Shown here piece by piece: positions 36,966 through 60,662 of a stretch of DNA of 64,000 bases. The translations under genes and the position numbers were made by a program. The first letter of the stretch is position 1, and every line of letters begins with the position of its first letter. A model generated the notes under the pieces. The model did not search any database. It saw only the letters and a list, made by a program, of their open reading frames with translations, and had not been told where the DNA came from. Source of the stretch: Buchnera aphidicola (Panaphis juglandis) (lineage in GTDB: Bacteria; Pseudomonadota; Gammaproteobacteria; Enterobacterales; Enterobacteriaceae); assembly GCF_964059065.1 (NCBI RefSeq), contig NZ_OZ060378.1, positions 124,001 to 188,000 of the forward strand, given 5' to 3'.

Positions 36966-37113
36966 ATATAATACTATATTGTATTTATTAATATTATTAA
37001 TGATAAAAACCGTTTTTAATAATTTTATTGGTAAATATTTATAATCATGATATTATATTTTTAATAATTATATTAAAAAATAATATTAATTTTATTATAT
37101 GAGAATCAATTTT

Positions 37114-39599
37114 ATGATTTCAAAGATATTTAAATATTTTTTTGAAAATATTTATGATAATAATTTAAAAAAAATTCAAAATATCATAAATACAATTAAT
37201 AGTTTAGAGAATAAATTTTGTAAATTATCAGATTTACAGTTAAAAAAAAAACTCAGTTTTTTAAATACCAGTTAAAAAAAGGTTTATCATTAGATGATAT
37301 ATTACCTGAAGCGTTTGCTACGATACGTGAAGCTAGTAAAAGAGTTTTTGATATGCGTCATTTTGATGTTCAAATTTTTGGAGGTATTGTACTGCATCAA
37401 AATTGTATTGCAGAAATGAGAACTGGTGAAGGAAAAACTTTAACTTCTACGTTACCAGTATACTTAAATTCTTTAAAGGGTTATGGTGTACATATAATTA
37501 CAATGAATGAATATTTAGCAGATCGTGATTCTAAACATAATTCTGAATTATTTAAATTTTTAGGATTAACAGTTGGACTAAATACGTCTAGTATTTCTAT
37601 TAAAAATAAAAAAAGAGCATATGCATCTGATATTACATATGGAACTAATAATGAATTTTGTTTTGATTATTTACGTGATAATATGGTTCTTTGTTCTGAT
37701 GATCGGGTTCAACGTGGATTATATTATGCAGTAATTGATGAAGTCGACTCTATATTAATTGATGAAGCACGAACACCTTTGGTTATTTCAGGTCCCTTCG
37801 AAGAAAATCTTGAAATATATTCTTTAATTGATAGTGTTGTTCAGAGTTTTTTATATGATCAAAAGAAGAATTTTTTTTTGAAAAAAAATAATTTTTTTGT
37901 AGTTGATAAAAAAAATAAACAAATCTTTTTAACAGAAGATGGTTTTCAAAAATTTGAAAATATTTTGTTGAATCATTCATTGCTAGATAAACGTGAATCA
38001 CTATATTCAGAAAAAAAATTTACATTAATTAAATACATCATTTCTTCTTTACGTGCACATGTAATATTTAAAAAAGATATTGATTATGTTGTTCAAAATA
38101 AAAAAATTATAATTATTGATGAACATACTGGACGAATGATGTTAGATCGCCGTTGGTCAGATGGTTTACATCAATCTGTTGAAGCAAAAGAAAAAGTTAC
38201 TATTTTAAATGAAAATCAAACATTAGCATCGATCACATTTCAAAATTATTTTCGTTTATATGAAAGAATTTGTGGAATGACAGGAACAGCTTATATTTCA
38301 GAGAGAGAATTTAAAATAATTTATAATTTAAAAACAGTGATTATACCCACTAATCGTCCCATGGTTCGAAAGGATTTTTCTGATGTTGTATACATATCTG
38401 AACGTGAAAAAATTAAAGCTATTGTTCAAGATATTAAACAATGTGTTTTAAGAAAACAACCAGTATTAGTTGGTACAACGTCCATTAAAAATTCTGAAAT
38501 AATTTCTAAAAAATTAATTAATATTAATATTAATCATAATGTTTTAAATGCGAAATTATATGAAAAAGAAGCGAATATTATATCGCAAGCTGGGAGATTG
38601 GGAGCGGTAACAATTTCTACTAATATGGCAGGTCGTGGAACAGATATTATTTTAGGTGGATCTATCAAAAAAAATATTAATACTTCTAGATTGCATGATA
38701 TACAGATACTTAAAAAATGGAAAAAAGAACATCAATTGGTGATTGCTTCTGGTGGTTTACATGTGATTGGAACAGAACGTCATGATTCCAGGAGGATTGA
38801 TAATCAATTGAGAGGTCGATCAGGACGTCAAGGTGATCCAGGTTCTTCACGTTTTTATCTTTCTCTTGATGATCCTTTAATACAGATATTTATTTCAAAA
38901 AATATTAAAGATCTTATCAGTAAGTTTAGAATAAATTTTGGTGAACCTTTAAATCATTCTTGGGTAACTCATTCTATTTCATATGCACAAAAAAAAGTTG
39001 AAAATTATAATTTTAAAATTCGTAAAAAATTATTAGAGTACGATAATGTTTTAAATCAACAAAGGATTATCTTTTATTCTATTCGTAATAATGTGTTGGA
39101 ATATCAAAATACTAAACATATATTTTTCAAAAATATATTAATATTTTTATATGAGATCATTAATAAAAATTGCTCTAATTATGTTTCAAGAAAATATTGG
39201 AATGTAGATAATATAGAGAGAATTTGTAAAAATAATTTGTATTGTAAAATAAAAATTTCTATAATTATTAAAAATAATTCAAGTGTTATTTCTAATACAT
39301 GGATTTTAAATAAGGTTTATAAAGTTATTCGAAATAATTATCGAGATTTAGAAAAACGAATCATTTATTTTAATATGCGTAATATAGAAAAAATTATTAT
39401 ATTAAAATGCTTAGATTCTTTTTGGGTAGAACATTTATCTTTTATGGAATACTTAAGAACTGGAATACATTTTAGAGGATATGCACAGAAAAATCCAACA
39501 CAGGAATATATGAAAGAAGCGTTTGATGTATTTTCTAGAATGTTGTGTGAATTAAAAAATGAAATTGTAACTAATATTTGTAAAAAATTCTTTTCATGA
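37114..39599 (+). CDS. secA: Preprotein translocase ATPase SecA, frameshifted at a poly(A) tract
   Basis: Motor ATPase that drives proteins through SecYEG. Frame 1 runs from ATG 37114 (MISKIFKYFF) and stops at 37273-37275; the rest is in another frame, from about 37252 to 39599. The break coincides with an A10 run (37242-37251). With eleven A residues the frame is continuous and reads LKKKTQFFKYQLKKGLSLDD, the expected family sequence, giving 828 residues. All essential motifs follow: MRTGEGKTL (Walker A), VDEVDSILIDEARTP, NMAGRGTDI, IGTERHDSRRIDNQLRGRSGRQGD, and LDSFWVEHLSFMEYLR. The C-terminal linker and zinc-binding SecB-binding tail of E. coli (901 residues) are missing. Because SecA is essential and the rest of the frame is intact, expression by transcriptional slippage at A10 is likely; a sequencing error is the other option. 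Confidence 0.93.
37242..37251 (+). repeat. A10 homopolymer at the secA frameshift
   Basis: Ten A residues in secA. One additional A restores the open reading frame exactly; ten leave a premature stop 21 bases downstream. This is the place where RNA polymerase slippage or a sequencing error would act. Confidence 0.9.
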
Positions 39600-39697: not shown

Positions 39698-40741
39698 ATG
39701 CGTATTGAAGAAAATATTAAATTAGGTTTTAAAGATGTTTTGATTCGACCTAAAAGATCCATGTTAAAAAGTAGATCAGAAGTTAATTTACTCAGAAATA
39801 TATCTTTTAAACATTCTAAAATTATTTGGAAAGGAATTCCAATTATTGCTTCAAATATGGATACAGTTGGTACATTTAGTATGGCTAAATCATTATCACA
39901 TTTTAATATATTTACAATAATAAATAAATATTATAGTATTAGTATGTGGAAAAATTTTATTATTAATAACAAACCAAATGTATTTAATTATATTATGGTA
40001 TCGACAGGAACTTCTAATTCTGATTATTTAAAATTAAAATCGATTTTATCATTATCACCTCTTTTAAAATATATTTGTATAGATGTTGCTAATGGATACT
40101 TAGATCATGTTGTATCTTTTGTTAAAAAAATAAGAATTGTTTTTCCTGATAAAGTTATTTGTGTAGGTAATGTTGTAACATGTGAAATGGTAGAAGAATT
40201 GATCCTTTCTGGTGCTGATATTGTTAAGGTTGGAATTGGTCCTGGTTCAGTATGTACCACTCGTTCTAAAACTGGTATTGGTTATCCTCAATTATCTGCT
40301 ATTATTGAATGTGCAGATGCTGCTCATGGTTTAAAAGGACATATTATTAGTGATGGGGGTTGTACAAATTCTGGTGATATTGCAAAAGCATTTGGAGCTG
40401 GGTCTGATTTTGTAATGCTAGGTGGTATGTTTGCTGGTCATATTGAATGTGAAGGGGAAATTATAATAGAAAATAATAAAAAATTTATGATATTTTATGG
40501 TATGAGTTCTAAACATGCTATGGAATTACATTCTGGTAAAATTGATCATTATAAAACTGATGAAGGTAAAATTGTAAAATTACTTTTTAAGGGTTCTATT
40601 AATAATACAATTTCAGATATTTTGGGTGGTTTAAGATCATCTTGTACCTATGTAGGTGCACAGAATATTAAAGAATTAACAAAACGAACAACGTTTATTC
40701 GTGTTTCAGAACAAGAAAATAAAATTTTTAATGCTTATTAA
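39698..40741 (+). CDS. guaC: GMP reductase (GuaC)
   Basis: NADPH-dependent conversion of GMP to IMP and ammonia, which links the guanine and adenine nucleotide pools. The 347 residues equal the E. coli length. The catalytic Cys186 is in GPGSVCTTR, with [37 protein letters not shown] and [16 protein letters not shown] around it. The ATG follows AAGGAT. It stands between secA and the pyruvate dehydrogenase operon. Confidence 0.96.
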
Positions 40742-58256: not shown

Positions 58257-60662
58257 ATGAAAATATTTTTTATTCGGTATTCTTTATTTTTATTTTTTTG
58301 TTTCTATAGTGTTAGTGTTTTTGCTCAACCATCAGATGATTTTAAAAAAATAGATTTTATTGGTTTAGATAATATTGCTAGAAATGTTATTTTGAATTAT
58401 AAAGTAAATCATCAATATAAAATTAGTGATATTGGTAATACATATCTTAAATTATCAAAAACAGGAATTTTTAATCATATTACAATTTCTGAAATTAATA
58501 AAACTGTATTTTTTATATTAAATACACATCCGATTATTTCAAATATTATTTTCAATGGAAATTATAAGTTAGAATCTATTTCTATTTTAAATGCGTGTCG
58601 ATGTTTTGGAATACAAGTTAATCACGTATTTGATATAAAAAAAATTATACATTTGAAACATATTATACAATGCTTATATCATAATATTGGTATATGTTAT
58701 ACAAAAATTAATATTGATTATAAATTAATAAATGATCATTTTGTTTTAATTAATATAAATTTAATAGAAGGTACTTGTCCAACATTAAAAAATATTAATA
58801 TTATTGGAAATCACGATTTTTTAAATTCTGATCTTATATCCTTATTTCATTCTTATTCTGGATTCTTAAAAAATTTAATTTTTTCTAATAAATATAATGA
58901 TGATACCTTTCGTAAAGATTTAATATTGTTAAAATCTTTTTATTATGAACATGGATATATTGATTTTTTTATTAAGAAAATTACTTTAGTTTTATCAAGT
59001 GATAAAAAGAGTATGAATATATACATTAATATTTTTGAAGGTAAAAAGTTTTATGTATCAAAGGTATTAATTCATGGAAATTTTAGAAGTGATATAATTG
59101 ATTTGAATTCTTTATTTTCAAAAGTTTTTTATCAAGATCCATATAATGTATATCAATTTTTTGAAATACAGAATAAATTACGAACCTTATATTTTAATTT
59201 TGGATTTTTACAATGCAATTGCTATTTTCAAACTGAAATTAATAATATTAAACATAGTGTTGTTGTACATATGTATACCTCTCTTGGTGAGAGGATGGTT
59301 GTAAATTCTATACATATTCAAGGTAATACTTTTACAAAAAATTTTGTATTATACCATCTTTTAAAAAATATTAAAATCGGTTCTTATGCAAATTTAAGTG
59401 TCATAAAACAAGGTAAATATATTCTTGAAAATTCAGGATATGTGAAAAATGTTTTTTTTAATCTTCATATTATTCATAATCGCAATAGAATTGATGTTGT
59501 ATATAAGGTACAGAATAAAAATTCTCATGCTCTTAATATGAAACTTGGTTATGATTTATCTTATGGTCCAAATTGTAATTTTAAAATTAGTAATAATAAT
59601 ATTTTTGGTTACGGTATATTAACAAAACTAAATATTTTTCATAACAATAGAAAAAATAATGTTCTTTATGAATTTAAATATCCAAATGTATTAAATAACG
59701 TAACATGGATGAGTAAGTTTTTTTATAATCATATCATCTATAATACAGATTCTATTTTATCTAGTAATGATATTTATGGCATGAAAGAAAAGATAAATTT
59801 TTATTTTTATAAAAATAGTTTAATTAATTTTTATTTTTATAATTATCATGATTTTTCTATAAAAAAAATACATACATGTTCTTTGTGGAATAATTTTAAA
59901 TTTTTTAATATTCATTTTAATAATCATAATTTAAAAAATTATGATCATTCAAAAATTTCGATTTCTTATTCATTTATTTATAATAGTGTACCAAAAGTTT
60001 TGTTTCCAAATTATGGTAATAAATTATCATTTCATCAAAATATTTATTTTTCTAATGTTATAAATCATTATCATAAAGAGTTATTATTTTTTGAACGATA
60101 TTTTTCTTTTTTTAAATATATTAGATGTGTTTCTCATGAGAGATTAAGAATTGGTTTTATTTCTCCATTTCATCATGTAAACTATCCAGTTTATGAAAAT
60201 TTTTATTTAAAAGATGATAATAATCTTCGTGGTTTTATTAATTTAGGATTAGGACCTAGTAATTTTGATTCTAGAATTTGTAATAATAAATCTTATAAAA
60301 CAAAAAAATTAAATCATGGTTTTCAAAATCATTTTGGTGGAAATATATTTTTTGTTAATAAAATGGATTTTATAATTCCAAATTTTTATATTTTTAATCA
60401 TTATTATGATCGTTTTTTTCATACAACATTTTTTATAGATATTGGTAATATTTGGAATACAGATTGGAAAAATACTATTAAAAATGTGTATTATAAAATT
60501 ACAAATTATAGTCATCCACATTTTGTACATGTTACAACTGGTATTGAATTGACATGGATTTCTCCAATTGGTCCCTTAGTATTCTCTTATGCTTATCCAA
60601 TATTACATTATTGTAGAGATATTTTAGAACCATTTCAATTGAATATTAAAAATAATTGGTGA
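58257..60662 (+). CDS. bamA: Outer membrane protein assembly factor BamA (YaeT)
   Basis: Omp85-family protein that inserts beta-barrels into the outer membrane. The 801 residues (E. coli 810) begin with a signal peptide (hydrophobic core to residue 23, predicted cut after VFA). Five POTRA domains follow (to about residue 420; FIGLDNI and GNTFTKNFVLYHLL-type blocks), then a C-terminal barrel with the RGF motif near residue 660 and the C-terminal end NIKNNW, matching E. coli FNIGKTW. The barrel is Asn/Phe/Tyr-rich and more diverged than the enzymes. It shows that an outer membrane is kept. Confidence 0.96.
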   Translation: MKIFFIRYSLFLFFCFYSVSVFAQPSDDFKKIDFIGLDNIARNVILNYKVNHQYKISDIGNTYLKLSKTGIFNHITISEINKTVFFILNTHPIISNIIFNGNYKLESISILNACRCFGIQVNHVFDIKKIIHLKHIIQCLYHNIGICYTKINIDYKLINDHFVLININLIEGTCPTLKNINIIGNHDFLNSDLISLFHSYSGFLKNLIFSNKYNDDTFRKDLILLKSFYYEHGYIDFFIKKITLVLSSDKKSMNIYINIFEGKKFYVSKVLIHGNFRSDIIDLNSLFSKVFYQDPYNVYQFFEIQNKLRTLYFNFGFLQCNCYFQTEINNIKHSVVVHMYTSLGERMVVNSIHIQGNTFTKNFVLYHLLKNIKIGSYANLSVIKQGKYILENSGYVKNVFFNLHIIHNRNRIDVVYKVQNKNSHALNMKLGYDLSYGPNCNFKISNNNIFGYGILTKLNIFHNNRKNNVLYEFKYPNVLNNVTWMSKFFYNHIIYNTDSILSSNDIYGMKEKINFYFYKNSLINFYFYNYHDFSIKKIHTCSLWNNFKFFNIHFNNHNLKNYDHSKISISYSFIYNSVPKVLFPNYGNKLSFHQNIYFSNVINHYHKELLFFERYFSFFKYIRCVSHERLRIGFISPFHHVNYPVYENFYLKDDNNLRGFINLGLGPSNFDSRICNNKSYKTKKLNHGFQNHFGGNIFFVNKMDFIIPNFYIFNHYYDRFFHTTFFIDIGNIWNTDWKNTIKNVYYKITNYSHPHFVHVTTGIELTWISPIGPLVFSYAYPILHYCRDILEPFQLNIKNNW

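Follow-up and report, generated by a model that had tools for sequence, protein, structure and literature searches.

A secA gene split at a ten-adenine run in seven Buchnera-type genomes and probably rescued by slippage

How does a cell obtain SecA when its only secA gene is broken in two at a run of adenines? The question is raised by the window analysed here, a stretch of 64,000 nucleotides (positions 124001-188000 of a single 433,824-base contig; G+C 24%) from a genome that is very probably a Buchnera, given its small size, a gene order common to other small genomes and its place in a SecA tree with one named Buchnera. The neighbours that flank secA are what we take to be truA and guaC. A genome search found one secA locus in the window's genome and no second one. 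The parts of the gene, in window coordinates, are as follows.

37101..37105, plus strand: GAGAA, a Shine-Dalgarno-like sequence before the ATG at 37114, read from the sequence and of presumed function
37114..37251, plus strand: first part of secA, frame 0, 46 codons (NF009538 positions 2-42, E 0.00093)
37224..37272, plus strand: zone of obligatory frame change, bounded by the nearest SecA-frame stop upstream and by the frame-0 stop (49 nt; 34-52 nt across the seven genomes that share the run)
37242..37251, plus strand: A10 run and frame junction, holding A-AAA-AAA in frame-0 phase (exactly ten A's in seven of 11 genomes of the genus)
37251..39599, plus strand: second part of secA, -1 frame, 782 codons plus TGA at 39597-39599 (NF009538 1035.7 bits against a cut-off of 814)
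37252..37275, plus strand: frame-0 continuation LSFLNTS plus TAA (7 codons; TAA at 37273-37275); in all seven genomes, 6-8 codons and then TAA

The original prediction that secA is read in two frames meeting at the A10 run was reproduced in both coordinates and frames. The SecA frame opens with the tenth A (37251), giving 46 + 782 = 828 codons. Because the two parts abut in the NF009538 profile, the second covering positions 43-810, the join is exact and residues are neither lost nor gained; the further claim that one extra A restores SecA over 828 residues with no other change therefore holds. The second part exceeds the Pfam cut-offs for SecA_DEAD, P-loop_SecA, SecA_SW and SecA_PP_bind as well as that of TIGR00963, and thus carries the SecA translocase domains by curated cut-offs. 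The first part alone falls under its Pfam cut-off (15.7 vs 24.6 bits), yet it continues the same profile. A further in-frame ATG is present upstream, at 37099, and 37114 is favoured as the start because the first part is 46 codons long in six of the seven genomes (45 in G007). The gene thus has the properties of a homopolymeric frameshift: its single break falls at an A/T run of the expected length (about nine or more), and the rest of the gene is intact. At its end (window 39540-39599), SecA is without the C-terminal Cys-rich motif CxC...SGKKYKxCHG that is present in G017, G106, G160 and G226; the motif is absent from all 11 genomes of the genus and from some outgroups.

The run was compared in 11 Buchnera-type genomes of the genus (G000-G010, G000 being that of the window). 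Exactly ten A's in TTA-AAA-AAA-AAA-C, with the same codons and the same break, were found in G000, G001, G003, G005, G007, G009 and G010. Eleven A's occupy the site in G008, where the gene is in frame, and in G002, G004 and G006 secA is in frame with no run at the site. In-frame runs also occur elsewhere in the first part of secA (A10 in G004 and A11 in G009). Identity between the second part of the window's SecA and those of the other six A10 genomes is 59-64%. In a family-wide sample of 392 genomes, 379 had a SecA match with an E value no higher than 1e-230. Among the matches listed, those from the six A10 genomes in the sample were open over 781-794 residues, and all others over 821 or more. 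Two order-level genomes, G036 (739 residues) and G052 (452 residues), likewise have shorter SecA open frames. A search of genome contigs returned, among the best 80 loci, the Buchnera from Pemphigus obesinymphae as the only Buchnera title and none tied to this genus, where near records may be absent.

The main tree, for which 7,642 columns from nineteen genes (secA among them, with its second part) were aligned in 17 genomes, united the seven A10 genomes with a bootstrap of 75 and the eight genomes including G008 with a bootstrap of 100, leaving G002, G004 and G006 outside. A SecA tree that includes one named Buchnera, from Pemphigus obesinymphae, gave support of 0.94 for the seven and 0.90 for the eight. 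In an 18-gene tree without secA and without outgroup, G007 paired with G008 (support 62), and an AU test of three topologies preferred G008 as sister (0.77), kept G007 with G008 (0.28) and rejected G007 as outermost (0.029). There is thus moderate support for the arrangement of the best tree, in which the seven A10 genomes form a clade with G008 as their sister. On that tree the simplest history would be an A11 run in the ancestor of the eight and a single loss of one A before the seven split; it is possible that the eleven A's of G008 are instead a reversion. The branch lengths inside the seven total about 2.0 substitutions per site (summed by hand on the main tree), and the frame break is apparently very old.

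Where the frames must be joined can be read from the flanking stops, which confine the change to a few dozen nucleotides in each of the seven. Within that zone, A10 is the only run of five or more common to all seven, and in G003 it is the sole such run. Conservation is seen on both sides of the junction. In the alignment of the seven, the windows starting at columns 35-45, after the join, have ratios of 0.66-0.81 vs a mean of 0.90, and the first 45-column window has a ratio of 0.94, the 49th highest of 152. In four pairs of genomes, dN/dS (NG86) was 0.13/0.44, 0.20/0.60, 0.20/0.53 and 0.27/0.67 more than 35 codons past the join; in the 35 codons past it, 0.07/1.25, 0.23/not computable, 0.20/0.85 and 0.23/0.48; and in the first part, 0.23/0.13, 0.25/1.75, 0.30/0.65 and 0.32/0.66. 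Hence dN is below dS beyond the junction in the four pairs and in the first part in three of four, the remaining pair (0.23/0.13) running against purifying selection but comprising only 46 codons. Residues of the first part such as 28, 29, 32 and 43 are invariant in the seven, and residues 11-18 are relaxed. The FGSRNDR-type N-terminal motif at residues 11-18 (window 37144-37167) is lost in all seven A10 genomes, those outside the window at loci L124, L126, L128, L130, L132 and L133, whereas G008 and most of the other in-frame genomes retain it. Of the 11 in-frame genomes, 10 have Arg at residue 16, vs one of the seven, and all 11 have Leu at residue 18, vs three of the seven. From these patterns we infer that the motif disappeared along the lineage with the break and not in G008. 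We considered wholesale decay of the first part and did not see it, given the ratio of its first window, although the pattern at residues 11-18 has gone.

Taken together, the break in seven genomes, the conservation on both sides and the narrow zone of change support well the original proposal of a rescue at the poly(A) run, and whole SecA probably depends on a slip of copying or reading at A10. We consider it likely that RNA polymerase carries out this rescue, some of the transcripts gaining an A at the run. The agreement of seven genomes indicates that the ten A's are real in the DNA. In the ancestor of the seven species, as the tree suggests, an eleven-A run would have lost one A, and the break would have been retained. 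Judging from slippage reported elsewhere, RNA polymerase would slip on A10 and give some transcripts the extra A from which a complete 828-residue SecA is made, whereas reading of uncorrected mRNA would end about 53 codons past the start. The corrected fraction would be the sole SecA of the cell and would keep the gene under the constraint that is observed. The original suggestions of a slip during transcription, of correction in no more than a fraction of the transcripts and of a SecA level set in this way are plausible.

The premise that slippage rescue has been reported in AT-rich symbionts is borne out for Buchnera and Blochmannia (PMC5009743, PMC6260861, PMC3164680). For poly(A) runs in the symbionts of aphids and ants, the described share of corrected transcripts is 12-50% (PMC5009743), and A10 is the run named for the Buchnera mur genes (PMC6260861). 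In Buchnera transcripts, 151 of 157 insertions lay within homopolymer runs; the same study, which concerns strain LSR1, different from the genome here, and not the secA break, detected no frame-restoring error (PMC5574713). Three of our own observations count against the reading given above as a whole: the one first-part pair with dN above dS, the loss of the motif near residues 11-18 in the seven, and the fact that unbroken runs are to be expected often, 115 of 138 KKK triplets being written entirely as AAA.

The protein itself does not tell the polymerase from the ribosome, since a polymerase slip and a -1 ribosomal slip yield an identical product. A ribosome stepping back one base on A-AAA-AAA within AAA AAA AAA would make the same full-length SecA from unedited mRNA, and the heptamer, which like A-AAA-AAG is a slippery sequence of dnaX-type sites, does lie in the right phase: TTA AAA AAA AAA C is found in the window and in the other six genomes. 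Cassettes of the magnesium chelatase cluster shifted frame in E. coli by 10, 40 and 63% with 7, 9 and 11 A's, ribosome and polymerase not being separated there, and a SecA cluster is named as one with possible programmed frameshifting (PMC3711429); the main text of that paper does not mention Buchnera. The further elements of a dnaX-type site were looked for in the seven and not found. RNAalifold predicted no pairs (0 in seven sequences) and hence no conserved structure downstream, the fold of the window's sequence had a z of +0.61, 143 of 200 shuffled versions folding equally well or better, and inspection of the alignment by eye found no GGAG/AGGA-like, that is Shine-Dalgarno-like, stimulator just upstream. 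Moreover, seven A's suffice for a ribosome, yet ten have been kept, a weak point given that unbroken AAA triplets are common. We regard a ribosomal slip, which would have to occur without a stimulator, as possible but rather unlikely.

It is also conceivable that the frames are never joined, and that the cell makes a short peptide together with a shortened SecA that starts at Met77 or at a rare start codon and is coupled to the frame-0 stop. That stop lies 6-8 codons past the run, residues 11-18 are without their usual pattern in the seven, and a SecA cluster with possible translational coupling is named in PMC3711429. Four of the A10 genomes have a GTG or TTG in the SecA frame from +38 onward and before Met77; in G000, G007 and G010, however, no ATG, GTG or TTG precedes Met77 in that frame, so that these three are without such a codon to translate the residues between the run and Met77, which are conserved. 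The rare starts ATT or ATA occur before Met77 in all seven, which makes separate initiation unlikely rather than impossible. The first part has also retained its start, its length and several residues in the seven, and we hold this explanation to be quite improbable.

How runs and frames behave in other genes was assessed in the 11 genomes with 25 other genes as controls; with the second part of secA this made 26 queries and 286 possible copies. For 273 of these a single frame covered more than 70% of the query; among the 25 other genes, none of the 262 copies found (275 possible) was split, although breaks close to gene ends could escape such a search. The 13 missing copies were those of guaC in G002, G004 and G006, ftsZ and ftsA in G006, pyrH, fabZ and rnt in both G002 and G006, and bamA in G004 and in G006, the latter having only weak pieces in two frames. 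As side observations, the guaC-like gene that adjoins secA (window 39698-40741) is present in eight of the 11 genomes and absent from the fetched stretches of the same three that have no A run at the secA site, and the bamA-like gene (window 58257-60662) is 31-38% identical to its counterparts in eight relatives over nearly its whole length, the lowest identity of the 26 genes. Within the control stretches, 88 A-runs of 10-16 bases sit inside open coding frames. The 14-mer TTAAAAAAAAAACT occurs twice more in the window's genome, at contig positions 222607-222620 (L177) and 266958-266971 (L178), in both cases inside open coding segments (291 and 318 residues long within the retrieved stretches). 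As the run is identical there, slippage at these two copies would make a good internal control.

Buchnera is polyploid, and a minority of chromosomes with eleven A's could in principle supply SecA. Run lengths do shift: of 67 runs of eight or more compared between G001 and G009, 30 were broken by substitutions, 30 had the same length and seven had changed it, that is, seven of the 37 unbroken runs differ. A minority allele that lasts in seven lineages, always beneath a ten-A consensus, is nevertheless unlikely, and mixed genome copies have very little probability as the source of SecA. A sequencing or assembly error that hides a true run of eleven A's, the case that would have undone the original prediction, is very unlikely despite the error-prone nature of long A runs, because seven genomes agree on ten A's, the neighbouring control genes are unsplit and the 88 long A-runs and both further copies of TTAAAAAAAAAACT lie in open frames, while G008 is reported with eleven A's.

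Is the run itself maintained? None of 126 other A/T run sites of nine or more in the 26 genes keeps nine or more in all seven genomes, the best doing so in six; a run of the same length and place, with the same break, in seven of 11 genomes is by this measure beyond chance. Within secA, TTA-A9-C (13 bases, including the whole A10) is the third longest stretch invariant in the seven; since two are longer, we rejected DNA-level invariance, high as it is, as unique to the run. The purity of the run was likewise rejected as a sign of selection, given the frequency of all-AAA KKK triplets. All seven and G008 have Lys as residue 45, vs one of ten genomes without the run, and of columns as variable as this one only nine of 210 are invariant in the seven, a pattern which suggests that the run rather than the residue has been kept. 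That each of the seven species has exactly ten A's is consistent with selection on the run but is no proof of a role in dosage. Selection may have kept the run, either as a requirement for correction or as a means of holding SecA at a level that the cell tolerates. More tentatively, and on comparative sequence evidence, one may imagine that the clade's only SecA is made solely via slippage at a run of fixed length, that selection holds the ten A's as the rate of correction sets a lowered, clade-typical level of SecA, and that the loss of the FGSRNDR-type motif is SecA's adjustment; we think this full scheme possible but doubtful.

Poly(A) breaks in symbiont genes have commonly been taken as recent gene inactivation (PMC3164680). 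Here the break sits in a gene that the cell can hardly lose, across seven genomes in which divergence has brought SecA to about 60% identity with that of the window. If our reading is true, error-prone decoding would be a standing need for protein export. The seven A10 genomes, one A11 sister and three genomes without the run offer natural replicates for comparing the length of the run, the correction of transcripts and the level of SecA. For annotators they are a caution that such genes should not be labelled pseudogenes.

Ancient frameshifts have reportedly been described before, by Wernegreen et al. in 2010. Among the matches listed, we found no report of a Buchnera secA break in the open-licence literature; a paper on Cinara symbionts contains none of the terms secA, slippage and frameshift in its main text (PMC6908640). 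Homopolymeric frameshifts have been counted in Buchnera, three of them in the strain from Cinara cedri, and a regulatory role was considered possible (PMC3164680). The closest precedents are the frameshifts of Buchnera cell-wall (mur) genes and of a Blochmannia histidine gene that, as cited in PMC5009743, PMC6260861 and PMC3164680, are corrected by transcriptional slippage (Tamas et al., 2008). Like them, secA belongs to an AT-rich symbiont and is intact apart from one break at about ten A's; unlike them, with corrected transcripts measured, it is known here from the sequence of seven genomes with exactly ten A's. Some frameshifts are conserved between Blochmannia species, essential functions included, and a dnaX break is common to B. 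vafer and B. floridanus (PMC3017870), two of three species, whereas the secA break is found in seven of 11 genomes of another symbiont and in another gene. In Citrobacter rodentium tssM, transcriptional slippage at A11 restores the full-length protein at about 20-25% (PMC4256274). The A run and the restored full-length protein resemble what is proposed for secA; however, both forms of TssM are reported as needed and tssM is not an essential symbiont gene, whereas the short SecA peptide is without known use. Finally, in nine species dnaX has ten A's that align with the Thermus motif (PMC3711429), and it shares with secA a conserved A10 at the frame transition of an important gene, but it gives two subunits, whereas for secA only the full-length product has a known function. 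The kind of rescue is thus known, and what distinguishes the present case is a gene that is both essential and single-copy, together with how many species share the break and how exactly the run length is the same.
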